Made by a program: the position numbers and the translations under genes
In this document: positions 1,382 through 54,743 of the stretch, piece after piece
Position numbering within the stretch: position 1 is the stretch's first letter
How the letters are laid out: every line of letters begins with the position of its first letter
Notes under the pieces: model-generated
The model's input: the letters and a program-made list of their open reading frames with translations, nothing else
Told to the model about the DNA's origin: nothing
Databases searched by the model: none
Source of the DNA: a virus
Virus record (IMG/VR): IMGVR_UViG_3300045922_000467
Coordinates: 1 to 55,119 of that record
Direction: 5' to 3' (one strand)
Length of the DNA stretch: 55,119 nt

Positions 1382-1604
1382 GGTTAAACGCACATCGGAT
1401 GGCCGAGCGGAGGGGGGACATGGATGGCCGAAAATGACCCCCCGCCCCCTAGAGGTAAGCCTCTCACAGCAAAGCCCCAAAAACCCAAATGTATACAATT
1501 CCCGCGGTCAAATGGAGCGAACGATGTCTGTTTTTCAGCCCTCTACTTTTACGGTGAAGCGTCTTACCTATGCCGCGTAGAGGAAGCGCTTGCGTTGAGC
1601 GTCT

Positions 1605-1709: not shown

Positions 1710-1785
1710 TGGTGACTCCGGCTGGGCTTGAACTAGCGTCCTTCAGTTTAGCAGACCGACGCTTTTCCAGCTGAGTTACGGATCC
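1710..1785 (-). tRNA. tRNA-like gene, anticodon GCU, CCA encoded
   Basis: Reading the minus strand from 1785, 76 bases fit canonical tRNA numbering without insertions. The acceptor strands are GGATCCG and CGGAGTC followed by A and an encoded CCA. U8, A14, G18, G19, U33 and the T-loop TTCAAGC are all in place. The anticodon loop CTGCTAA gives GCU, which reads Ser AGC/AGU codons. Unusual points: the variable loop has only five bases although tRNA-Ser normally has a long variable arm; mismatches occur at 3-70, 10-25, 13-22 and 52-62. It may be functional, decayed or a tRNA mimic. It is opposite in direction to the downstream structural genes. Confidence 0.65.
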
Positions 1786-34790: not shown

Positions 34791-37682
34791 CTATTTGACG
34801 ACCGAGAGCTGCCCAAGAATCTTGTCCTCGAGAGCCGTTTCCCCGGGCTCGGTCGTAAGGTCTACCTCCAGCATGTGCCGGAGCCGGGAATTGTTGAGGT
34901 TCAGCACCACCACACAAACCTGCGGGAGCTTCACCGGGGTGTTCTTGGTCAACGTGGCCTTGCCACTGGCAGGGGTGCAGACGGCGCCGGCCATGGCCAT
35001 CGTGTCGACAACACCCTTGATATCAAACCCCTTGTAGGCCAGCCATCTGCGGAGGTGGTTGCGATCGATCATCACGGTACCGCGATCAAACGGGGCCTGC
35101 ATGTCTTTGCGGTGGAGGTCGATGCGGACCCGGATCTCTCCGCGGGGGATCCGGTTCGGGTCATATGATGGCTTCCCTCTGTCAGTGTGCGTCAGCGTGA
35201 CCGTGCAGCCGGCGTGCTCCACCAGATATTCGGTCACCAGATCGAAGGCATCGAGCGTCTGGTCGATGACAACGGTTCGGTTGCGCCGGACATTCTCAAG
35301 AACAAGTTTCACAGCCGGTTCCGGCCGTACAAGGGTGAGCCCCCAATCATAGGCCAGCCGGCCGGCGAGATCCGAAAGCACGGCGATGGACTCCCAATAC
35401 CGCTCCTCGCCAGCGAACTGAAAGTGGTACCTGGCTCGGAACGTGTCGAAGGCATCCGCGACCACAGCCTTCACGCCGCTCGGCCCGAGCTCCAGCAGAC
35501 GCCGCACGAACTCCGGACCGATATGGCCGTAGTGCTCGTTGATGGCTTTGTAGAGCTCGCGTCCGCCGGTGCTGTTCCCCTCGAAGATTTTTTTCCGCTC
35601 TACCGGGAGCTCGAGAACACGCACCCGCTGGGCCCCATACTCCTGCCCACTGGTCAGCAACTTCGACCCGAAAGACCCGTTCATGGATGCGATCATGAAC
35701 ATGCACCACTCCCGGGCGGTCTTCTCCTCGGAGTTTCTCCCAAGGCGGGCCTTGTCTCGCCCCTGAGTAACCATATAGACCAGCTCCCCGGCGTCGCGGG
35801 GGTCAAGGATGGTTGCCTCGTCGATCGTCACCGGCAGGTTGTTGCACATGCCCATCCGGCCGAACAACGCGTTCTGAGTGAACTTGGCAGCAAAGTGGAG
35901 CTTGCTCGGATCCCCCCAGATGCTTTGTGCCCACAGCTGTGCCAGGGTCTTGCCGGCCCCCGTGTCGCCGCACAGAACGATCAGCGCCCCTTTCAACCCA
36001 GTGAACGGCAGCAGGATGGATGCCAACGACGAGAGCCAGGTGAAATACTGCTCGGTGAGCCCCTGCGTCTGAAACAACTGTGTCAGGTTGATCTGCTTCT
36101 GACGGCCGCCGGCGGTGTGGTAGAGACCGCTGCCGACCGCGATAATCGTGCTCGACAACTGCACCTGCTGGTCGAATATGGTCCCATCCGGAGCGCGGGA
36201 TATTAGCCGGTCGCCGATCACGAACTGAGTGAAAGACTCCTTCCAGCCCATGGTGGAATATGAGTTTGTCAAAGTGCGGATCTTCCGCAAATTGTCCATG
36301 TACCCGCGCAGCATCATCTGGAAAGTTCTCGTCTGCTTCTCATTGAACAACACGATGCCTTGGTCGGCACAGCTTGAGCCGAACTCCCGAGCACCGTCGA
36401 CCAACAAGGCTTGGCGCAGTGTGAGCAGCTGCCATCCGACATGGGATCGATGCCAGCGAAAGCGGCACACCTCGTAGCCAAGACCTTCATCTCTGCCATA
36501 ACTCACCGGATAGATGTCGAAGGGAGTCACATCGACCGGGACATCTTCTATCACATATTTGATCCCCTCGGGAGTTCGCTTGAAGCCCCGAGGAAGTGGC
36601 ACAACCATCGCCTCCTGGTCGGGTGCATCAGCCGACGGAGCGATCTCCAGAAAGCTAACGCCAAGCCGTACGGGGGTAGTTATCTTGTCCTTGAACGGGC
36701 ACTTGTCGCAGCCCTTTGCCCTCGCTTGGTTGAACCTTTCACACGTTGCCGGCCCGGTGGTGCTGTCTTTCCATTGCTGCATTTTTCTCAGCGTCGCAGG
36801 ACGGCTGAACCCGGGGTGCTGGTCAGACCATGCGACAGCGACTCCCTCCGGGTCTGCCGTATATGCCGCGACACCGAGCATGGCGTACCACATTGGCTCG
36901 GGCACTTGGGCCTGGTTCTCCACCCCCCACCGGATCTGCTGGCACTTACTGACGATGGTCGCTGCATCCGCAGGCGGTCCAGTGAAAGGGACCTGCATCG
37001 CTGCATTGAGTGCCATGTTCCCGGAGAAGGCCGCCGGGGGGCCCGGGGCTCCTGCGGGGGTGTTAGGCTGCAGAGCAGATCGAACGGCCGCCACAGCCCG
37101 GCAAAACTCGACCACGGGTATATTGGGAGCGTCGGCGAGCAGCACCACCGGGGCGTTTCGTTTGAAGTTCATCGTACAGATCGGCCGGAGGACGCGCGAA
37201 CTGTCGGCTGTCACTGTCGGGTCGATGTGCAACTCGGCCTCGATCAACGCCGCCTTGAGCGCCTCGGCCAGCACCTGCCAGGCACTGCCGTCCAACTCCT
37301 GGTCAAGCACCCAGTAGCAGTGCAGGCCAGCGCCGGAGCCGACGACAATAGGCCGGGGGAAGCTGTGCTTGTGGAGAAAGCCGCCGAGAGCCCCAAGCCC
37401 TTCGCGCCACGTCGGATAGGGCTTGCCGGGGCCGCAGTCGATATCAGCCGCCATCGACCGCACCCACGCCACGTTCCCCTGCTTGCGATTCTCCTTGGTC
37501 TTGAAACTGGCCACCGAGAAATACGCATCGACGCCACCGTCGGAGATAGCCTTGGTAACCGCCGCCACATCAGCCACGGTGTCAACCATCAACTGGCGCG
37601 GGGCTCGGCCTTGCGGGATAGCCAGCGTGGCATAGAAGCCCGTTGCGGGAAGAACCCGCTGGAGGAAGCTGAACGTGTCCAT
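34791..37682 (-). CDS. PrimPol-like primase fused to DUF927-type helicase
   Basis: 963 aa. It likely primes and unwinds phage DNA. The N-terminal archaeo-eukaryotic primase (AEP) domain has the metal-binding DID at residues 80-82, the GSGAGLHCYW strand with its His, and VTADSSRVLRPICTMNFK, the third PrimPol motif. A Cys cluster (C-x8-C-x2-C, CERFNQARAKGCDKC) follows. From about residue 360 a DUF927-like part leads to Walker A GDTGAGKT (572-579), VTIDEAT and MIASMNGSF. ATG 37682 has no good Shine-Dalgarno but is near a 30-base palindrome. It is the main replication enzyme beside the DNA polymerase; a gp4-type helicase is absent. Confidence 0.85.
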   Translation of the reverse strand: MDTFSFLQRVLPATGFYATLAIPQGRAPRQLMVDTVADVAAVTKAISDGGVDAYFSVASFKTKENRKQGNVAWVRSMAADIDCGPGKPYPTWREGLGALGGFLHKHSFPRPIVVGSGAGLHCYWVLDQELDGSAWQVLAEALKAALIEAELHIDPTVTADSSRVLRPICTMNFKRNAPVVLLADAPNIPVVEFCRAVAAVRSALQPNTPAGAPGPPAAFSGNMALNAAMQVPFTGPPADAATIVSKCQQIRWGVENQAQVPEPMWYAMLGVAAYTADPEGVAVAWSDQHPGFSRPATLRKMQQWKDSTTGPATCERFNQARAKGCDKCPFKDKITTPVRLGVSFLEIAPSADAPDQEAMVVPLPRGFKRTPEGIKYVIEDVPVDVTPFDIYPVSYGRDEGLGYEVCRFRWHRSHVGWQLLTLRQALLVDGAREFGSSCADQGIVLFNEKQTRTFQMMLRGYMDNLRKIRTLTNSYSTMGWKESFTQFVIGDRLISRAPDGTIFDQQVQLSSTIIAVGSGLYHTAGGRQKQINLTQLFQTQGLTEQYFTWLSSLASILLPFTGLKGALIVLCGDTGAGKTLAQLWAQSIWGDPSKLHFAAKFTQNALFGRMGMCNNLPVTIDEATILDPRDAGELVYMVTQGRDKARLGRNSEEKTAREWCMFMIASMNGSFGSKLLTSGQEYGAQRVRVLELPVERKKIFEGNSTGGRELYKAINEHYGHIGPEFVRRLLELGPSGVKAVVADAFDTFRARYHFQFAGEERYWESIAVLSDLAGRLAYDWGLTLVRPEPAVKLVLENVRRNRTVVIDQTLDAFDLVTEYLVEHAGCTVTLTHTDRGKPSYDPNRIPRGEIRVRIDLHRKDMQAPFDRGTVMIDRNHLRRWLAYKGFDIKGVVDTMAMAGAVCTPASGKATLTKNTPVKLPQVCVVVLNLNNSRLRHMLEVDLTTEPGETALEDKILGQLSVVK

Positions 37683-37735: not shown

Positions 37736-38017
37736 TCAATAGCGGGCGGCGAGATCGAGGAAGCGCTGCTGTCGCTCCCGGTCACCCATCTTCCGGATTT
37801 CCTCAGTAGGCCACTGAAAATCGCGGATCACGGCGCCCATCTTGGCGAGGGCTCGCCGGAGCTTCTCCTCATGGGTGTGCCGGGGGTTCCGATCGCCCCT
37901 CACCCAGGAGTAGTAGGTGACGCGGTGGACGCCAGCCAATGTCGCCACGGTAACCACCGACAGAAGCATTCGCTCCCGGATAGCCTCCAGTTTCTTGATA
38001 TCGATCGGCTCCCTCAT
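37736..38017 (-). CDS. small helix-turn-helix protein
   Basis: 93 aa. Residues 18-50 (LLSVVTVATLAGVHRVTYYSWVRGDRNP) have the XRE-like pattern of an HTH DNA-binding protein: small residue turn, then a recognition helix ending YYSWVRGDRNP. The ATG at 38017 overlaps the preceding stop (TGATG). It is the only small HTH protein in the leftward block and is followed by a perfect palindrome. It is a candidate regulator of that palindrome or the GTATAC sites; this is inference. Confidence 0.75.
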   Translation of the reverse strand: MREPIDIKKLEAIRERMLLSVVTVATLAGVHRVTYYSWVRGDRNPRHTHEEKLRRALAKMGAVIRDFQWPTEEIRKMGDRERQQRFLDLAARY

Positions 38018-39093
38018 CACACCGCTCCGCCAGGATTGAGGAGAGCCGCGATCTCTGCGGCCAGGCTCGAGCTGTTGCTGCTGACCACGACCGGCTCCGC
38101 GGTCTCCGCAGCCGGGGCCGGGGGCGGGGCCGGGATGTTGCTGCTGACCGCAGCGGGTGCGGGTGCGGGTGCGGGTGCGGGCGCCGCAGACGAAGCGCCA
38201 AATCCTGAGCGCCGCTTCGCCTTGGCCGGAGAAGCGGCAGGAGCAGGAGCAGGAGCGGGAGCAGGCGCCGCGGGCGGCACAACCGGCGCAGGCGGAGGGG
38301 CAAGCGTCGGCGGCACAACCGGCGCAGGCGGAGGGGCAAGCGTCGGCGGCACAACCGGCGCAGGCGCCGCGGGATCCGGAGCCCGGGTCACCGCGCGGAT
38401 AGCCTCGGGGTCCTGCATCACAGCATCAACCGCGGCCTGCTGCTCGGCACTCAGGTAACCACCAATCTGGAACTGCAGTTTCGGAAATGATGCCGACGGG
38501 TCGAAGGTCATCCTGGTGATGACGCATTGCACCGGGATGCCGTGCTGGTTCAACTGGCGGATATACTGACCAAGACCCTTGAGCGCCGCAGGAGTCACGT
38601 TCAGCAGGTAAATCCCCGCCGAAGGATCCTCCGGGCCTACCACGGCGAGCCGCTTGTGGTCCGAGCACGCCTTGAGCTGCTGGCCGGTGTCGGTCTGCTT
38701 GGAGCCCCACACATTCTGCGGACACCCGGCGCACGATGCGGCCTGCTTCATCGGGCTGTCCGGGTTCGGCACAATCCCGTTGTCCGAAGAACAATCCGGA
38801 GCAGCGGCCTCCTGATCGGGCGACCACCCCTGAGCGTACCAAGTCTTGGAAATGGCGGGGTTGGCCCCAACCACCACGACATCGAGGTGCAGCGTCGGGA
38901 CGAGAATCTCCTCCCCATGCTCGATGATGCGAAACCGGGCGCCCTTCAAACTGATGCGCGACGTGGACTCCCCACCAACGCCGGCCATAACCGCCGCAGA
39001 GAGTGAGGTGGGGTCGGAGACCGCCGCCGGCCCGATACGACCGACGAGGTGTGCCGGCACCTTAAGGCCGGTGTGGGTGACGATGTCGTTCAT
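38017..39093 (-). CDS. conserved replication-associated protein with Cys cluster and Pro-rich linker
   Basis: 358 aa, no named function. Residues 1-115 are a beta-rich domain (ISLKGARFRIIEHGEEILVPTLHLDVVVVGANP), then Cys residues in DCSS, SCAGCPQNVWG and LKACSDHKR could bind a metal. Residues 150-230 form a second beta domain. The remainder is Ala-Pro low complexity with a near-exact PPTLAPPPAPVVP repeat. Position next to primase and the beta fold suggest single-stranded DNA binding, but this is inference. ATG 39093 follows AGGAAGGAATC. Confidence 0.65.
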   Translation of the reverse strand: MNDIVTHTGLKVPAHLVGRIGPAAVSDPTSLSAAVMAGVGGESTSRISLKGARFRIIEHGEEILVPTLHLDVVVVGANPAISKTWYAQGWSPDQEAAAPDCSSDNGIVPNPDSPMKQAASCAGCPQNVWGSKQTDTGQQLKACSDHKRLAVVGPEDPSAGIYLLNVTPAALKGLGQYIRQLNQHGIPVQCVITRMTFDPSASFPKLQFQIGGYLSAEQQAAVDAVMQDPEAIRAVTRAPDPAAPAPVVPPTLAPPPAPVVPPTLAPPPAPVVPPAAPAPAPAPAPAASPAKAKRRSGFGASSAAPAPAPAPAPAAVSSNIPAPPPAPAAETAEPVVVSSNSSSLAAEIAALLNPGGAV

Positions 39094-39709: not shown

Positions 39710-41268
39710 TGCTGTTCTCCACGCGTCTCTGCCTCGATGACTTCGAGGAGTAGACCCTGCAGACTCTGCCGTTTTTCGAGCCGGTTGTAAACACGTTTTT
39801 CGAGGGTGGACCCATAAATGTGTACCCGGATGGTGGTGTGCTGCTTGCCGATACGCTCAGTCCGCCCGCAAGCCTGGGTATATATCTCATTTTTGTCGAT
39901 CGGCCCGTACCAGACCATCATCCGGGCACGGGTGAGGGTAAGACCATGGGCCATGCAACCAGGGTGCGCGATCAGGATTCGGGGGTCCGGATCGTTCTGG
40001 AACTCATGGAATATGCGGGTTCGATCCTTTGCCGACACGTCCCCGTATACATAAGCGCATGTGTAGTGTTTACTGAGTTCCCGATACAACATCGCCAGCA
40101 CCCCGGTGAGCGGGACGAACACAATCACCTTATCTTGAGGGTGCAGAGCGTCGACAAACTCCCGCACCAAGTCGACGCGAGGTGTAGCGTCGAACTCGAC
40201 CGGGCGGCCGGCCGTATCATAGGCAACCCCGCAGCTGATCTGCAGCAGTTTGTTCACCTTGACCGCCTCGTTGACCGCGGTGATCTGGCCGCCGGCATGC
40301 TCAGCCATGAGACTCTTCACCATGGTGTTGTATGCAGCACGCTGCTCATCGCTCATGTCCGACTTGCGTTCCATGGTGACAACTGCCGGAAGGTCGAGAC
40401 ACTCATCCCGGGTAAATCTAATAGCGGGCTGCAGGATCTGGCGAACCGTGTCGATGGCGCCTGCTTTGGGCACATATCGGAAGTTCCCCACCTTCTGCAT
40501 CACCAGATCGCGGAAAGCGCTGTATGACCTGGCGATCCCAGTGTTTCCAACCAGCTTGGCCAACGCCCAAGCATCGGTCGGCTCGTTCGGGGTGGGCGTG
40601 CCGGTCATCAGCCAAAGCCGGACGTTCGGGTTCCGGGTCAGAAACTTATACAAAATCTTGAACTTACGCGTCTGGGGGTTTCGATAGACGGCAGCCTCGT
40701 CGACAATCACAAGATCGAACATCCCATCGGCCTGATCGGCGATGATCTCAAACCCTTCGTGGTTGACGATGTAATAGTCTGCGTCCGCACTCGCCAGCAG
40801 CTTCCGGCGACGCTTGGCGGTGCCCCGCAGCACCGTAGCCACCCGCCCTATAAGGCTTGTGAATATCTCCTTGCTCCAAACCGGATCGAGCGTTGACAGC
40901 GGCGAAAGCACAAGCACGCGCTTCACAGCCCCGATGCTCATCAGATAGTCCGCTGCCCAGAGTGCCGACTGCGTCTTCCCAGTGCCGATGTCGTTCAGAA
41001 CAAGACACCTGGGGTGGATGGTCAGGAACGCCGAAGTCAGCCGTTGGTGTTTGTAGGGAGTGAATCGCCCCGGCCAATTGTAGTGGTAGAGGATGGGCGA
41101 CGGCACTCGGATGCCCATGTTGTTCAGCACCCGAACAGAGTCCAGATCATGCGAAACCATGACCAGAGGGTGACCCCCAACCTGCTGGGCAGTGGGTAGA
41201 CAGGCGGCCACCTGCGCCGGATTGTCTGTCCGAAAAATGACCTGCCGCTTGTCTTCGACAACAATCAT
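39706..41268 (-). CDS. SNF2-type DEAD/DEAH helicase
   Basis: 520 aa. It is a superfamily 2 helicase or translocase for replication or recombination. Walker A is NDIGTGKT at 92-99; motif II is DEAA at 190-193 (a variant of DEAD/DEAH); motif III is MTGTPTPNEP; the C-terminal half has IAHPGCMAHGLTLTRARMMVWYGP and YTQACGRTERIGKQHTTIRVHIY, motifs V and VI. Start ATG 41268 overlaps the VRR-NUC stop (ATGA); the open frame runs 60 codons further without a ribosome site. Its nuclease neighbours suggest they work together. Confidence 0.9.
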   Translation of the reverse strand: MIVVEDKRQVIFRTDNPAQVAACLPTAQQVGGHPLVMVSHDLDSVRVLNNMGIRVPSPILYHYNWPGRFTPYKHQRLTSAFLTIHPRCLVLNDIGTGKTQSALWAADYLMSIGAVKRVLVLSPLSTLDPVWSKEIFTSLIGRVATVLRGTAKRRRKLLASADADYYIVNHEGFEIIADQADGMFDLVIVDEAAVYRNPQTRKFKILYKFLTRNPNVRLWLMTGTPTPNEPTDAWALAKLVGNTGIARSYSAFRDLVMQKVGNFRYVPKAGAIDTVRQILQPAIRFTRDECLDLPAVVTMERKSDMSDEQRAAYNTMVKSLMAEHAGGQITAVNEAVKVNKLLQISCGVAYDTAGRPVEFDATPRVDLVREFVDALHPQDKVIVFVPLTGVLAMLYRELSKHYTCAYVYGDVSAKDRTRIFHEFQNDPDPRILIAHPGCMAHGLTLTRARMMVWYGPIDKNEIYTQACGRTERIGKQHTTIRVHIYGSTLEKRVYNRLEKRQSLQGLLLEVIEAETRGEQQ

Positions 41269-41669
41269 AGCCGACTGATCCTGGTGAGCAGGGCGCGGAG
41301 AACCCCCATAGACTCGGGGCTTTCTCCGACGACAACAAAGGTGCAGCCGCCCGCCCCTGATATGTTCTGCAGCGTACGGGCTTGCAGGTCGGTGAGGACC
41401 CCCCGCGCAGCCTTGGTCTCGATGGCGATGAAACGTCCTTTGTAACAACAGATGAAATCCGGGATGCCCATATGACCCATCCCGCTGCTAACCGGCATGA
41501 AAAACCAGACACCAAACTCCTTGAGAAGATCCTTCACCAGCGCCTTGACACGACCTTCCGGAGTCCGGGATTTCCTGACGGAAGCCCTACTTCGCGTGGG
41601 GACAGGTTGGCTTTGCCGGGCAGAAGTTGCAGAGGCCGGAGGGGCGAGCGGGCCAGCGGTTCTGGGCAT
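41265..41669 (-). CDS. VRR-NUC domain nuclease
   Basis: 134 aa. Residues 62-100 carry the VRR-NUC core of the PD-(D/E)XK superfamily: GMGHMGIPDFICCYKGRFIAIETKAARG, with Asp71, Glu84 and Lys86 as catalytic residues. Such nucleases cut branched DNA and often accompany a SNF2 helicase in phages, as here. The start ATG 41669 follows AAGGAAG; its N-terminal 35 residues are Ser/Pro/Ala-rich and overlap the Cas4-like gene by 83 bases, a long overlap. Confidence 0.9.
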   Translation of the reverse strand: MPRTAGPLAPPASATSARQSQPVPTRSRASVRKSRTPEGRVKALVKDLLKEFGVWFFMPVSSGMGHMGIPDFICCYKGRFIAIETKAARGVLTDLQARTLQNISGAGGCTFVVVGESPESMGVLRALLTRISRL

Positions 41670-42252
41670 GGGCTTCCTTTATCTTGTTGACCCGCTGGAC
41701 AACGCCAGCGAGAAGGTCGGGGATTTGGGTTCGGCTGTAAACTTCGCTGTCCTGCTTCCTATCCTTGAGCCACACGAACACAGCAGTGACCGACTGCACG
41801 GCCGGGCTGTGTATCATTGTAGCCGCCGCAGCAATCTCCATCTGGAAAAAATCCGGATATCGCTTCCCGGTCTTCCAGTCGGCGATGACTGCTCGGTTGC
41901 CAGCCACAACCTCGACATCGGTCTTGGTCCGGAGAAACACGTCGCGGTCCCACCACCCCCCGGGAGCGAACGACCGGTTGAGACAGCGGTCAACCTCAGC
42001 CTTGATCGTGCCACCTTGTGCAGCGGCTTCGAAAGCCCCCACAACGGGCTCGTGGTGAGCGAGATCGTGAGGCAACGGTACCTTGTCGTTGATCCGCTTC
42101 TCCAGCGCCTCATGGCTACGGTCGCCCGCCCAGGACGCCTTGGTGCCGACGTCTTTAATGTCCTGGACAACCCGCTGTCGGTAGTATCGCAACGGACACT
42201 GCTCGAACTGCTTCAAGCTGGTGAAGGAGTGAGCAGCGGGGATGGCTGGCAT
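41587..42252 (-). CDS. Cas4/RecB-like nuclease with Fe-S cysteines
   Basis: 221 aa. It is a PD-(D/E)XK exonuclease of the Cas4 or AddB type. The N-terminal SFTSLKQFEQCPLRYY holds Cys19; the centre has TDVEVVAGNRAVIADWKTGKRY with the catalytic Asp and Lys; the end GLCNFCPAKPTCPH supplies Cys208, Cys211 and Cys217. Four cysteines in this arrangement bind a [4Fe-4S] cluster. There is no CRISPR array or Cas1 in the window, so it is a replication or recombination enzyme. ATG 42252 follows GGAGAACAGTTGA. Confidence 0.88.
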   Translation of the reverse strand: MPAIPAAHSFTSLKQFEQCPLRYYRQRVVQDIKDVGTKASWAGDRSHEALEKRINDKVPLPHDLAHHEPVVGAFEAAAQGGTIKAEVDRCLNRSFAPGGWWDRDVFLRTKTDVEVVAGNRAVIADWKTGKRYPDFFQMEIAAAATMIHSPAVQSVTAVFVWLKDRKQDSEVYSRTQIPDLLAGVVQRVNKIKEAHAQNRWPARPSGLCNFCPAKPTCPHAK

Positions 42253-42716
42253 TCAACTGTTCTCCGATATGCGGCGCGCATGGCGTCCCGTGCCAGCTTG
42301 TCGCATAAATCATGGACATAGGTCCGCGGAGAGAGAGTCCCTGAGTGCGCTTTCACATACCTAACCCGAACTTCGAGCCGCATCGAACGCACCGTATCCG
42401 CCAGGGTGACGCATGCACGCTGCACCTTGGTCGGGTTCTTCCTCGGGGATGACCCCCTCCAGTTCTGAATGATACGCAAAGCGTGATCGTTGTCCAGAGT
42501 GAAAAGGACCGTGTCGAACTTTCTCACCACGCCTTGTAGAATCCCCAGATGCAGGGCGTTGATCGCCGCCATCAGCTCCGCGTGGTAGCTATTGGATACA
42601 GGTTGCCGGAACACCCCGGCCTTCACTCCAGTGCATCCCCGCTCTGATTTAACCCATCCGGCCCAAGCACCCACGGGTGCGCGAACGCTTGCATCTGATA
42701 TTATGGTAACTAACAC
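42213..42716 (-). CDS. ribonuclease H (type I fold)
   Basis: 167 aa. It probably removes RNA primers. It has Asp8 in ISDAS, Glu47 in YHAELMAAINAL, Asp75 in FTLDNDHALRI and a late acidic site in YVHDLCDKLARDAM, plus the YVKAHSGT segment that in RNase HI lies close to the active site. GTG 42716 with AAGGAGATTCATC upstream is the start. It overlaps the Cas4-like gene by 40 bases. Confidence 0.85.
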   Translation of the reverse strand: MLVTIISDASVRAPVGAWAGWVKSERGCTGVKAGVFRQPVSNSYHAELMAAINALHLGILQGVVRKFDTVLFTLDNDHALRIIQNWRGSSPRKNPTKVQRACVTLADTVRSMRLEVRVRYVKAHSGTLSPRTYVHDLCDKLARDAMRAAYRRTVECQPSPLLTPSPA

Positions 42717-42737
42717 GATGAATCTCCTTGCGTACGG

Positions 42738-43128
42738 CTACACTTCATCCGCCCCCAACCAATCGTGGGCACGCCACGTTCCCAGCATCTGAGCTGCAGA
42801 TACAGCCTGAGACAGCGTCCAAGTACTGGGTGCATAGATGTATACAGCTTCGACCTTCTGGGCGTAGTCGCGCTCCTTCCAGACAAACAACCTGTAGGGG
42901 ATGCTGCCCGGGATCGGGCAAAACTCCAGCCCCGCCGCGATATCGCGCCAGCTGCTTGTGATCTTGTGCATGAGTACGGTGCGGCCGTTCTCCGGCCCCC
43001 CGGTCAACATGATCGCCCGAGGGTGGTGCCTGACAACGCGGGCAACGCCCCGCATCACAGTATCGTTCAAAGATTCACACGACTCGGCATAGATACTGGT
43101 ACCCACCGCAGCAGAATCCCCCTGACAT
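42738..43128 (-). CDS. hypothetical protein with probable one-base frameshift near its start
   Basis: The open frame from GTG 43106 gives 122 aa with no ribosome site. The natural start is ATG 43128, behind GGAGAACAG, but that frame stops after 17 codons. Removing one base from the GGGGG run (complement of 43118-43122) joins ATG 43128 to the long frame as MSGDSAAVGTSIYAES. This could be a sequencing error, a phase-variable tract or a real mutation. The product has no known family; it has hydrophobic strands (HHPRAIMLTGGPENG, VEAVYIYAPSTW) and no catalytic motif. Functional status is unclear. Confidence 0.55.
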
Positions 43129-43145
43129 CTGTTCTCCGAAAGAGA

Positions 43146-43355
43146 TCAATTCCAGCTAAGAGGGAAGAGCTCACCTCCATCTTCGGAGTACACCTGCTCA
43201 ATGCTCGCGCCAGAAACCATGCCGAGTATATCGACGGCTACCCGGAAAAACAGCTCGGGATTATCCCTGCCGATCTCCATGAACAGCTGTAGCGCACCAT
43301 CCAAAAATGCCCTGCGGGCCGCAGTCTCCCGAACAAATGCTTCGTCACCAGTCAT
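43146..43355 (-). CDS. hypothetical small protein before RNase H genes, 69 aa
   Basis: I do not recognise it. It is acidic and helical (residues 8-45). ATG 43355 overlaps the DNA polymerase stop (ATGA) and also has GGAGAACGTGC upstream. It is probably coupled to DNA polymerase translation. Confidence 0.65.
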   Translation of the reverse strand: MTGDEAFVRETAARRAFLDGALQLFMEIGRDNPELFFRVAVDILGMVSGASIEQVYSEDGGELFPLSWN

Positions 43356-45286
43356 GCACGTTCTCCTTGGTTAAACCTATCCAGAGGGACTAGGTCCCCG
43401 TAGTTGTATCCGATTCCGATCTCGCAGTCCAGAGGTAGCCCCGGCATCCACACTGGCGGGGTCGTCATCGTGGTGTGGACAAAGCTGTGGGTTGCGTGGA
43501 TATCCTGCTCCCGAACCAACAGGACGATATTGTCGTGGACTTGGAGTAGAACCGGGGCGACACCCCGCAAAACCACCATCTTCTCCCGGATGATATCGGA
43601 GGCCAGCGCTTGGATGATGTTCTCCAGAACCTTCGCGCCGTATAGCCGGGTCGCGGCATCGGGAGAGATGTCACTCCCGGTCATATTGGATTTCACCCTC
43701 GCGAGCAGCGCTGCGCTGGTACTGCAATAGGAGGCCTCGCCCCCGACGCGAAAGATGCCTGGGTAATCCAACGCCATACCGTTCGGGCGGATGATCCGTG
43801 TACCCTCAACCCGAGCCCACTCATTGATATCGCAGTTCGCTCCATCAATCATGGCCTGGATCGCATCGTCGAGACGAAACCACATATGCCGGATCCGGGT
43901 AAACTTGTTCCTGTAAAAATTAACATCCATCGACGCTTCCGATGACAGCAGAATGATACCCCCCTGTATACGGGCCATCTCCCTGTAGCTCTCCGCTCCG
44001 ACGCCATATTGCAGCGAAAGTATGGACACCTTACCCAGCATGCGCTCCCGCTTATTGGCCTTGGTGACCTTGAACCCGAAACGCTCACTGGCGTAGCTGC
44101 TGTATACATCTTCACCCTGAGCAAACTGGTTCACCAACCCCATCTCCCCGCAGAACATGGCGCAGAGCCGGGCTTCGATCTGAGACAAGTCAACGTCAAG
44201 CAAGACATACCCCGGCGGCGCCTCCATGCACTGCTTTAGGGACTTGCCGTTGCGGCTGGGCAGGTTCTGCAGGTTAATGCTGCCGGTACCGGAGAACCTC
44301 CCTGTGTGCGCTCCGTAATAGTTCAAAGGAACAGGCAGCAGCCCCCGAGTGGAAATGCCGAGAAACCGCTTGGCACGGGTCTCATCCAGCGATGACTGAG
44401 TTCCCAGCCTAGCCTCGACGAAGCTGCGCACCAACTCGTCATCGCTCAAGAGAAGCTCGGCGGTTATGCGGTGCGTCTTGGTGAGGGACGGCTCCCCGGT
44501 TTTGGCGGATCTGGGCAGCCGACCGCTGAGCAGCCCATCCAGAAATCGAATGGCGTCACGGCTGCGCAACCACTTGAAGAAAGCCTTTCTGTCGACACCC
44601 CCGAAATTGGGTAGGTCCGGCATACCCACAAGATCGGCCAGTTTTTTCTGCAGATCCTCGACAAGAGTGTCCTTCCTAGCAATGACCTCCCGCGTGTAGT
44701 CAACCAGTTTGCGCTGGTTCAGATGGATGTAAGGCTTGGTAAACATCTCCAGCGTAATGTGGATAGCGGCCCTCTCCGTCAGCGGGAGTTTGTTTTTGAG
44801 AATGTGAAACAGAGCGAGGCAGTTCTCGGCATCGCGATTAGCATAGAGCGGGCCGTAAGATGCAAGCTCATGGAGCGTCATGTCTGAGCGCCGCTTTCCC
44901 TTCATCTGCACTACCATATCGCCCTTATCGGGCAGACCGTAATGGCGAGAGAGTTTAGCCAGCGACAGGCCGGGCGATACCCGGTGGAACGGACGCGCCA
45001 TCTTGAGAGTGCATGCCATGACCCGAGGGTGGATATTGTAGCACCAAGCCAGGATGGCGAAATCGAACAGGCCATTGTGGGCAACGACCGTCCGAGACTC
45101 AAGATTTAGGGCACTAAGTTCAGCGTGAATATTCTCATAAATCCATCGCGTAGGCGTCCCCGGCTCTGCGATGCTGACACCGATTGTCTCGAACCGAGGG
45201 TCGCGAATATACTCCTCGGTGGACATCTTTCTCAAGCTATAGTCGTCGCTGTAGAAAGTCTCAAAGTCGATAGCCACAACATTCAT
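43352..45286 (-). CDS. polA: DNA polymerase, family A with proofreading exonuclease
   Basis: 644 aa. It replicates the phage genome. The exonuclease has DFET near residue 9, VVAHNGLFDFAIL and YANRDAENCLALF. Motif A is DLSQIEARL with Asp366 and Glu371; the O-helix segment RMLGKVSILSLQYG has Arg417, Lys421 and Tyr429, with Leu425 where E. coli has Phe762; motif C is QVHDNIVLL with Asp585. Motif C normally reads HDE, so Asn586 replaces the usual Glu. The start at 45286 was chosen for GGAGAACACGCAG; an earlier in-frame start adds 23 residues. Confidence 0.93.
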   Translation of the reverse strand: MNVVAIDFETFYSDDYSLRKMSTEEYIRDPRFETIGVSIAEPGTPTRWIYENIHAELSALNLESRTVVAHNGLFDFAILAWCYNIHPRVMACTLKMARPFHRVSPGLSLAKLSRHYGLPDKGDMVVQMKGKRRSDMTLHELASYGPLYANRDAENCLALFHILKNKLPLTERAAIHITLEMFTKPYIHLNQRKLVDYTREVIARKDTLVEDLQKKLADLVGMPDLPNFGGVDRKAFFKWLRSRDAIRFLDGLLSGRLPRSAKTGEPSLTKTHRITAELLLSDDELVRSFVEARLGTQSSLDETRAKRFLGISTRGLLPVPLNYYGAHTGRFSGTGSINLQNLPSRNGKSLKQCMEAPPGYVLLDVDLSQIEARLCAMFCGEMGLVNQFAQGEDVYSSYASERFGFKVTKANKRERMLGKVSILSLQYGVGAESYREMARIQGGIILLSSEASMDVNFYRNKFTRIRHMWFRLDDAIQAMIDGANCDINEWARVEGTRIIRPNGMALDYPGIFRVGGEASYCSTSAALLARVKSNMTGSDISPDAATRLYGAKVLENIIQALASDIIREKMVVLRGVAPVLLQVHDNIVLLVREQDIHATHSFVHTTMTTPPVWMPGLPLDCEIGIGYNYGDLVPLDRFNQGERA

Positions 45287-45465
45287 CTGCGTGTTCTCCA
45301 AAATATCCGGATGCCCTTCATGTCCCACCGTCAACATGCTGGTCGGGATCCCCAAACGGTGAGTGCTTGCGCAATGTCGGGTTGGCCGTAGCCACGACGT
45401 TCCGGATCGACGCCGCAGGAGGTGTGGGGTCCCTAACTCATGCCCGAAACTGTATACGCCGGGGG
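45287..45465. other. gap in the leftward block with a GTATAC site
   Basis: This is the longest non-coding stretch inside the leftward block. It holds one GTATAC (45452-45457), seven bases past the stop of the preceding gene, in GGCGTATACAGT on the minus strand. A TTGCAA lies 15 bases before TATACA, a short-spaced possible promoter for the replication genes. Nothing else stands out. Confidence 0.4.
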
Positions 45466-53353: not shown

Positions 53354-53698
53354 TCAGGCGAAGGGCCGGCCATGCCGGGCAGAGGGGTTCAGCGACGGAC
53401 CCTTTCTGGGGTCCAGAGCAACCAGGGTGTAGGAGTCCCGGTTGTACTGGATCCGAATATGGGTGAACCCATACTGCCGCAACGTGGGGCGGTCGTTCAT
53501 GGTGACGAAACTCCCGCAGAAGATGTCGTCGAGAGCGACATGCTCATGGCCGACGACAAAATCATAGACGGCGTCCTCAGGAGAGAGATACCGGTTGTAA
53601 CGGGGTCTCACAGTGAGAGCCTTATACCGGCCCTCATTCGAGAGGTCGTGCCAGTGGCGGCCGAGATCACGGAAGCTATTATATGTGGTTGCCTTCAT
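53354..53698 (-). CDS. first gene of the leftward block, hypothetical, 114 aa
   Basis: I do not recognise it. The ATG 53698 follows GGAGGTATACACCT, in which the Shine-Dalgarno overlaps a GTATAC site, so a protein bound there could block translation initiation. The product has a basic N-terminal half (YNSFRDLGRHWHDLSNEGRYKALTVRPRYNRYLS), a central LSPEDAVYDFVVGHEHVALDDIF and a C-terminal beta strand. It starts about 79 bases after the predicted promoter start. Confidence 0.7.
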   Translation of the reverse strand: MKATTYNSFRDLGRHWHDLSNEGRYKALTVRPRYNRYLSPEDAVYDFVVGHEHVALDDIFCGSFVTMNDRPTLRQYGFTHIRIQYNRDSYTLVALDPRKGPSLNPSARHGRPFA

Positions 53699-53720
53699 AG
53701 GTGTATACCTCCAGCTGTGA

Positions 53721-53744
53721 GTGTATACGATTAGTCGTATACAC
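53721..53744. promoter_or_regulatory. 24-bp perfect palindromic operator
   Basis: GTGTATACGA and its exact complement TCGTATACAC flank the centre TTAG. It lies between the promoter start (about 53,777) and the first gene's ribosome site, at roughly +33 to +56 of the leftward transcript. A third GTATAC (53703-53708) overlaps the ribosome site. It has the shape of a repressor operator or an RNA hairpin that hides the start. Confidence 0.85.
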
Positions 53745-53783
53745 CAGAGTGTAACCACCACTCCAGGGGTGTGGCGGACGGCC

Positions 53784-53813
53784 ATTGTAGCACCGCCCGC
53801 CGGCGGCTGTCAA
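53784..53813 (-). promoter_or_regulatory. near-consensus sigma70 promoter of the leftward block
   Basis: On the minus strand TTGACA (53813-53808), an 18-base spacer and TACAAT (53789-53784). The -35 box is perfect and the -10 has one mismatch. Transcription should begin near 53,777 and run leftward through the MoxR/VWA and replication genes. The match to host sigma70 consensus argues that host RNA polymerase reads these genes. Confidence 0.85.
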
Positions 53814-54630
53814 CCCTGGGGGGTAGGGGGGCGGGGCGATTTGGCGGCGGCACGAGGATATGTATACACGTTTTCGGTGTTAGGAGGGGGGTTCTGGATA
53901 GTAACGTATACAAATACGGGGGTTTTTGAATACTCCTACACGTTTTTTGACCCCCTATTTGTATACTTTCGTGTTACATTTGTATTCAATTTTTGTATCC
54001 GTTTATGAGAAATCAAGGACTTGCGCGGAAAAAACTATCAAACGTTACACTATCTGGTGAAAATCTAGGGGCGCTGGATTTCACGGGGCTGCGGGGCTGT
54101 ATACGTATACTGTATACGTATACTGTATTCAGTTTACATTTGGGTCCCCCTATATAGTGTATAAAAAAATGTATACACATATAGTTGATAAAAATGAGAC
54201 CTCGAAACCAGGTTAGGAGTTACAACCTAACCCCATGGTTTTATTGCGCTTTCGCCCCAAATGGATACACTTTTTGAATACAAGTAATACAGTTTTTGTA
54301 TACAAATGTAAACAACGAGCTTGTTTCGTTTTGTGCGCTGCACAATAGTCTCAAACCGGACCTACCGTCTGTAAGACGCTGATTTTCCCAGATATTTTTT
54401 AGCGCTACAGTTTGATAGCAACGTATACAAATGTAAACAGTCAACGATTATAAGGACTTGCGCCGAGGGCCCCGGGTGTTGCGGTGCAGCATGACCAGGG
54501 GGCAATGACCCCCCGAGCCAATACTTCTAGGATATCAGGTGCTTAGGGGCGGCGGACCCGGGTGTCGCGTGCCATGACCCCCCGACGAATAGGAGGAGCG
54601 CAGCGACGGAACCGCGCGCCCGCGTCCGCA
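53814..54630. other. AT-rich control region with GTATAC array, no clear gene
   Basis: No credible gene fits. It contains ten of the thirteen GTATAC sites of the cluster (53862, 53906, 53961, 54099, 54105, 54112, 54118, 54171, 54298, 54423). Two tandem 13-base TGTATACGTATAC units are at 54098-54123. A 17-base direct repeat GTATACAAATGTAAACA is at 54298-54314 and 54423-54439, and a 12-base repeat AAGGACTTGCGC is at 54015-54026 and 54452-54463. An inverted repeat GGTTAGG/CCTAACC is at 54211-54232. Two CGGGGGGTCAT motifs (54505, 54574) lie near the right end. It is AT-rich against a GC-rich genome and holds iteron-like repeats, so it is a candidate origin or control region. Confidence 0.7.
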
Positions 54631-54633
54631 CCC

Positions 54634-54682
54634 GCGCCCTGCGCCCTGCGCCCTGCGCCCTGCGCCCTGCGCCCTGCGCCCT
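54634..54682. repeat. heptamer tandem repeat (GCGCCCT)7
   Basis: Seven perfect copies of GCGCCCT lie next to the terminator at 54696-54727 and beside a CGGGGGGTCAT motif. It is non-coding as far as I can see. It corresponds in position to the hexamer repeat at 686-728. Confidence 0.9.
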
Positions 54683-54695
54683 GAATCGCGGGCAC

Positions 54696-54727
54696 AAAAA
54701 ACCCGCCCCGGATTGCTCCGGGGCGGG
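54696..54727 (-). terminator. strong terminator after the 54744-55073 gene
   Basis: On the minus strand CCCGCCCCGGA, a short loop and TCCGGGGCGGG are followed by six T. It is the clearest Rho-independent terminator in the window and ends the 54744-55073 transcript. Confidence 0.92.
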
Positions 54728-54743
54728 CAGTGAGGGCGGGCTG

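Follow-up and report, generated by a model that had tools for sequence, protein, structure and literature searches.

In the known lambda/P22-type and C-protein cases, each region holds a handful of operators. In cluster A mycobacteriophages, repressor and stoperator motifs diverge in pairs (PMC6550527), and in PLE satellites the iterons diverge under attack by a phage nuclease (PMC8263062; PMC7145576). The locus described here shares its logic with the latter two systems. It lies in IMG/VR virus record IMGVR_UViG_3300045922_000467, a linear record whose 55,119 bases were analyzed as a whole (hereafter the window), and it consists of an array of the six-base palindrome GTATAC in front of an early operon.

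Like the stoperators of cluster A, the array comprises many copies of a short word, some of them near an early promoter, and the word and its cognate protein, here a candidate, diverge (PMC6550527). On the other hand, cluster A stoperators are asymmetric sites, up to ~30 in number, spread over temperate genomes, whereas the sites described here are packed into a gene-free region and two words coexist in the relatives; an integrase and dispersed sites, which are defining features of cluster A, were not found in this group. The likeness to the RepA/ori system of PLE resides in a noncoding repeat region that is read by one DNA-binding protein, again a candidate here, and whose repeats diverge (PMC7145576; PMC8263062). 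PLE, however, possesses three semi-palindromic iterons of ~30 bp and a RepA_N initiator; the present locus has an XRE-type candidate and sites of 8-9 bp that number ~20 or more, and no known initiator family was found (Rep_3 was searched). What defines such an origin above all is the start of replication at its repeats, for which the array here is a candidate. Finally, the fold of the candidate binder and the presence of palindromic sites around an early promoter recall the operators of lambda and P22 and those of restriction-system C-proteins, although about 20 sites are found here over 0.7 kb. In the library of papers that was searched, neither GTATAC operators nor phage Rollin, a remote cultured relative, are mentioned.

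The Phage Genome and Its Relatives

The rightward genes of the window include those coding for the terminase large subunit, a portal/head-tail adaptor and a 2608-aa protein. The leftward genes include those for a MoxR-type ATPase (phrog_1297), a VWA/metallopeptidase protein (DUF2201), a DNA polymerase, a PD-(D/E)XK nuclease, a VRR-NUC-like endonuclease and a SNF2-type helicase. A tRNA-Ser (gct) gene was also observed at 1710-1785 (-), near the early/late junction. Cultured relatives are remote, with terminase identities of 45% for Pseudomonas phage Rollin and 40% for Rhizobium phages RHph_TM, and a nucleotide search of phage records with the window gave no match. Single-protein scans (polymerase, helicase) returned no or one relative, and alignments were required: that of the ATPase gave 80 loci of uncultured phages, and that of the helicase 80 more.

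Profile searches of the window and 16 relatives, which gave matches in control genomes, detected no tyrosine integrase (PF00589), no serine resolvase/integrase (PF00239) and no ParB (PF02195); a ParB/parS-type centromere was considered as well, and no ParB-family protein was found. The absence of these proteins from 17 genomes suggests, without proving it, that the clade is virulent. In Rhizobium phage records, the homologue of the primase-helicase is labelled 'putative integrase' (MN988472.1, 42239-45322; locus L008), which is probably a misannotation.

The GTATAC Array and Its Control Region

A sequence-only reading of the window had drawn attention to 13 copies of GTATAC within about 730 bases. 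The exact count is indeed 13, in 726 bp:

53703-54428, no strand assigned: GTATAC array, 13 sites by word count
53703, 53723, 53737, 53862, 53906, 53961, 54099, 54105, 54112, 54118, 54171, 54298, 54423: starts of the GTATAC copies
54097-54128, no strand assigned: densest block, 2.5 copies of CTGTATACGTATA with four GTATAC and nested palindromes
53981-54439: span of the near-variant sites, from motif fit and repeats, namely TGTATTCA at 53981 and 54124, TTTACA at ~54131, TGGATACA at ~54262, TGAATACA at 54275, and TGTAAACA at ~54307 and ~54432

The cluster is real. The whole window contains 22 copies, nine of them outside the cluster, compared with a mean of 3.0 and a maximum of 8 in 100 dinucleotide shuffles. 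Local Markov models of the AT-rich region anticipate 0.5 copies (first order; maximum of 4 in 5000) to 1.7 copies (second order) where 13 are found, and base composition is therefore no explanation of the cluster. The enrichment is thus confirmed; the chance rate of one copy per 4 kb that had been assumed for it was too high, the shuffles giving about one per 18 kb in this genome of 60% GC. Near variants add further sites: with TGTATTCA, TGAATACA, TGGATACA and TGTAAACA, the total of TGTA..CA-type sites rises to some 20 or more. These variants were listed by means of a free motif fit on the window, which served for nothing else, as it counted overlapping sites too often. The words of the array are TGTATAC followed by A, G or T, together with TGTATTCA and TGTAAACA. 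Elsewhere in the window, five more GTATAC are scattered over 5.4 kb of the replication operon (40045-45457), above the background rate; two of them are perfect TGTATACA (42839 and 44101), in or near the polymerase gene.

The array occupies a region of ~0.9 kb bounded by a terminator on one side and by the leftward early operon on the other:

53354-53698, minus strand: gene opening the early operon (114 aa), with counterparts in 7 of 11 relatives
53784-53813, minus strand: predicted early promoter, TTGACA-18-TACAAT, matching the consensus at 11 of 12 positions, TG preceding the second hexamer
54012-54024, plus strand: conserved repeat ATCAAGGACTTGC (family ATCAANNACTTR), enriched in the regions of relatives
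54450-54461: partial second copy of this repeat, ATAAGGACTTGC
54579-54591, minus strand: upstream border element TATTCGTCGGGGG (CATACGTCGGGGG in relatives), start of the region
54701-54728, minus strand: intrinsic terminator closing the upstream small-gene cluster, 12-pair stem and T tract

The description of this region as AT-rich and devoid of genes holds, since its GC content is 44% (60.5% for the genome) and no gene having a relative lies within it. Its position relative to the promoter needs a correction. The predicted promoter (53813-53784, minus strand) reads into the leftward early/replication operon, and the cluster had been placed upstream of it; this is true of ten GTATAC, but the other three (53703, 53723 and 53737) lie between the promoter and the first gene, and the copy at 53703-53708 sits between the Shine-Dalgarno sequence of that gene (53708-53712) and its start codon. 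A TTGACA-type element recurs at the downstream edge of the region in relatives. At the upstream edge, CATACGTCGGGGG or a near variant is found at the same place in about 55 related loci, sometimes in two copies, and the window has a degenerate second copy at ~54505-54522. When the window was searched for RNA families, the matches were all weak; they fell at the terminator, apart from a chance match to one miRNA. GC-rich simple tandem repeats were observed near both contig ends, at 54616-54683 (GCGCCCT, ~10 copies) and at 679-728 (CCCGCG, ~8 copies).

Arrays at the Same Locus in Related Phages

Dozens of uncultured phages of ~55 kb carry an AT-rich, gene-free repeat region at the same place, and in nearly all relatives with enough sequence the array region lies upstream of the early operon. 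The spelling of the repeat differs from genome to genome (TGTAAAGTT, TGTATAGTT, TGTAAGGTT, TGTATACTT and others). For instance, the array words are AACTTTACA in L028 (20 copies of CTTTACA), AACTATAC in L014, L016 and L080, CTATCTA and AGTATAC in L045, TAATCTA in L041, CCTTACA in L010, and TGTAATA in L005; the spelling nearest to that of the window, TGTATACTT/AAGTATACA, occurs in L045, L031 and L033. GTATAC itself is a misleading search word in relatives because they use other words. The expectation that related phages would have the same cluster was consequently borne out as regards the locus, but not as regards GTATAC.

When 58 regions were pooled, 41 of them redundancy-screened, two classes of sites, the definitions of which derive from these same data, exceeded their counts in shuffled regions: class I, TGTNNNGTT, with 6.84 per region vs. 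0.99, and class II, TAGATNNTT, with 4.16 vs. 0.19. Most pooled regions contain both classes. Two further elements, ATCAANNACTTR (0.88 per region vs. 0.01) and AACTTGACA (1.50 vs. 0.01), are enriched in the same 58 regions. Neither class is represented in the window by its standard words, and the results obtained with relatives are therefore transferred to it by position, border and distal element.

The two classes are distributed differently along the genome. In ten genomes, 26 class II words fall inside the arrays and 3 in the remainder, whereas the density of class I sites is 7.0 per kb inside the arrays, 1.27 per kb within 1.5 kb outside them, and 0.25-0.32 per kb beyond, which is the background. 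Class I flank sites coincide with ribosome-binding sites in 13 of 43 cases vs. a background of 16%, a preference that is suggestive only. Word counts revealed no comparable TGTN-type cluster in three distantly related cultured phages, namely Pseudomonas phage Rollin (30-61 kb part only), Pseudomonas phage KPP25 and Rhizobium phage RHph_TM3_14A (the greater part of the record in the last two). Dense repeats of the GCCGTAGC/CTACGGC type were also observed just upstream of the ATPase gene in L040 (3700-4600), L052 (3000-4100), L011 and L015.

The Distal Element and the Concerted Change of Words

One array-type site of the window lies away from the array, in a composite element:

1452-1500, minus strand: conserved distal composite element TGTATACATTTGGGTTTTTGGGGCTTTGCTGTGAGAGGCTTACC, which contains a single array-type site, TGTATACA (1490-1497)

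The record is linear; on a circular map its ends would adjoin, from which we infer that the distal element and the array would form one neighborhood, as they do in relatives. Most relatives have this element, which starts with a single class I site followed by CGTTCCTTTTTTGGGGTCGTGCTTTGAGAGGTTTAC and lies mostly 0.6-1.4 kb upstream of the border. In the window as well as in L014, L045, L041 and others, the array-type site is accompanied by a conserved T-run and GGGG, near the early/late junction and the terminase genes; a role in transcription initiation as a promoter, in packaging or in regulation is conceivable for the element.

Although ~1 kb or more separates the distal site from the array, its word is that of the array of the same genome. 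In the 41 screened regions, a TATACA-type distal site is found in 8 genomes, and TGTATA is the first or second commonest TGT word of the array in 8/8; conversely, 20 genomes have a AACTTTACA- or AAGTTTACA-type distal site, and TGTATA is among the first two array words in 0/20. The change of words was also captured in a sister pair, L030 and L033, the genes of which are nearly identical. Between these two phages, more than 12 class I sites over 1.9 kb have changed (AAGTATACA to AAGTTTACA, TGTATACTT to TGTAAACTT, AAGTTGACA to AAGTGAACA, and others), mostly in their three central bases, and identity amounts to 89% at class II positions vs. 76% in class I sites and spacers. A trans-acting factor of changed specificity can produce such a joint change, which local duplication does not easily do. 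These observations thus strongly suggest that the binder would be a diverging, phage-encoded, trans-acting protein with lineage-specific specificity.

A Candidate Binder Encoded in the Replication Operon

The candidate binder and its neighbors are as follows:

37736-38020, minus strand: 94-aa HTH_3 protein (XRE/lambda-repressor fold), candidate binder, Pfam HTH_3 E 6e-5
34791-37682, minus strand: primase-helicase (DUF927, phrog_25314), its gene following that of the HTH protein
38017-39093, minus strand: conserved 358-aa protein with a Cys motif, overlapping the start of the HTH gene (alignment)

The 94-aa protein is presumably the HTH protein of 93 aa to which the sequence-only reading had referred. 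Its gene is located in the replication operon, between the primase-helicase gene and that of the 358-aa protein. The latter, which has an acidic tail in relatives, appears SSB-like by inspection only, and a structural search gave no convincing solved relative. The model of the 94-aa protein (AlphaFold, pLDDT 92.5) consists of a lambda-repressor-type HTH with extra helices, and its nearest folds are C.Kpn2I, DdrO, C.AhdI and P22 c2, none of which reaches E 0.001. The protein is present in 11 of 11 long relatives examined. HTH_3 matches number one in 15 of 17 genomes, two in another, and none above threshold in the last, which nevertheless has the 94-aa protein; in nearly every genome searched, this protein is the only HTH_3 match. 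Its recognition helix spans residues 33-40. In the first 12 HTH sequences, R33, Y36, Y37 and W39 are invariant and positions 32, 34 and 38 vary, the window protein having H32, V34 and S38. By analogy with the 434 repressor and other lambda-type HTH proteins, we take these variable positions to be at or beside those that contact bases.

Probable Operator and Origin Functions

We hold with moderate confidence that the GTATAC array is the operator array of the 94-aa HTH protein in an early control region, probably doubling as a replication origin, both functions being deduced from position and composition. Iterons of a replication origin, the second role proposed in the sequence-only reading, are compatible with this explanation, a regulator array and an origin not being mutually exclusive. 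Indeed, the region is gene-free, class II words are almost confined to it, the GC skew changes sign near it, and in 10 of 11 genomes DNA stability is lowest there, at both 100 and 300 bp; in the eleventh, the array is split by the contig ends. GC skew also follows gene direction and is therefore no proof of an origin.

These properties, along with the tens of short repeats, the location of the HTH gene inside the replication module and the lack of an integrase in 17 genomes, would also suit an array that is purely an iteron-type origin, lying near the promoter incidentally, with repeats to which an initiator binds, either the HTH protein or part of the primase-helicase. This explanation is unlikely. 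Class I sites extend into the flanks up to 1.5 kb (1.27 per kb vs. a background of 0.25), and their word is found at the conserved distal element and in some gene leaders; together with the sites that the window has between promoter and first gene, this distribution suits an operator better than a pure origin. Moreover, a profile search found no Rep_3 initiator in the 17 genomes, a result that also weighs against the origin half of the preferred explanation.

Co-variation of the Array Word and the Recognition Helix

The assignment of the operator array to the 94-aa protein relies on the co-variation of site and helix. In the 26 genomes for which both data are available, TATACA-type distal sites occur only with T/H32 or K/R38, and AACTTTACA-type distal sites only with S32 and G/S/N38 (8 vs. 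17 genomes after removal of one near-duplicate; naive Fisher p 9e-7, with kinship ignored and the rule drawn after seeing the data). According to the tree of the rest of the HTH protein, T/H32 has three separate origins. The co-variation of word and helix comprises only about three independent changes, and an independent-pairs test is not significant, such a number of pairs being too small for any phylogeny-corrected test to reach significance. Furthermore, the helix SRMTYYGW occurs with several array words (TGTAAA, TGTCAA and TGTAAG), and hence the word is not set by the helix alone; further residues or a different protein also play a part. No correspondence with the HTH helix was seen for class II words. 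On the whole, co-variation suggests that the class I factor may be the 94-aa HTH protein.

The small number of independent changes and the service of several words by one helix type are also what would be seen if a different phage protein bound the sites and the co-variation of the helix were a coincidence of phylogeny. We regard this as improbable, given that the association of residues and words is complete over the 26 genomes and that the variable residues presumably lie at or beside base-contacting positions. That the array binds a phage regulator, as had been proposed earlier, is well supported by the lineage-specific words at one locus, the joint changes of sites and the co-variation with the HTH protein.

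Slightly less credible still is that the array serves a temperate phage as a set of immunity operators or stoperators, the words diverging as immunity types do. Lineage-specific words, the number of sites and the presence of some of them in gene leaders agree with such a function, for which diverging repressor and stoperator motifs provide the precedent (PMC6550527). However, neither tyrosine integrase, serine resolvase/integrase nor ParB was found in 17 genomes, and the sites are concentrated in one region, class I reaching only the near flanks instead of the whole genome. As for a functionless product of local repeat expansion or of misassembly, to which the tandem block at 54097-54128 might point, it is extremely improbable and is already contradicted by the comparative data: the sites have unrelated flanks, are found on both strands, recur at one locus across independent metagenomes, and share their word with a distal site ~1 kb or more away.

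Proposed Mechanism and Significance

According to the operator-and-origin explanation preferred here, a phage-encoded sequence-specific protein, for which the 94-aa HTH protein of XRE type is the likeliest candidate, would bind the GTATAC array at ten sites upstream of the early promoter and three between the promoter and the first gene, as well as the distal site. The bound protein would control early transcription, that of its own operon included. The AT-rich and easily melted array region would probably also serve as the replication origin, of which the second site class of the relatives and the conserved border elements would be parts. In this combined region, class I may act mainly as operator, as its occurrence around the promoter, in the near flanks and at the distal element suggests, and class II mainly as origin, considering its near-confinement to the array. 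The neighbors of the HTH gene likewise speak for an origin.

More tentatively, a clade of apparently virulent phages may keep a combined origin and early-control region written in two site alphabets, one locally frozen and the other rewritten together with the helix of an XRE-type protein. Each lineage might thereby own a private address for replication and transcription, the selective pressure perhaps coming from satellites, from other phages in the same cell or from nucleases directed at origins. Whatever its cause, the divergence offers, in dozens of related phages, a natural series of specificity changes that involve both a DNA-binding protein and the set of its sites, and a close sister pair caught after the switch makes the change of a regulator's word over more than 12 sites directly amenable to study. 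If the region is an origin, it also suggests a way in which related phages may keep their replication private.
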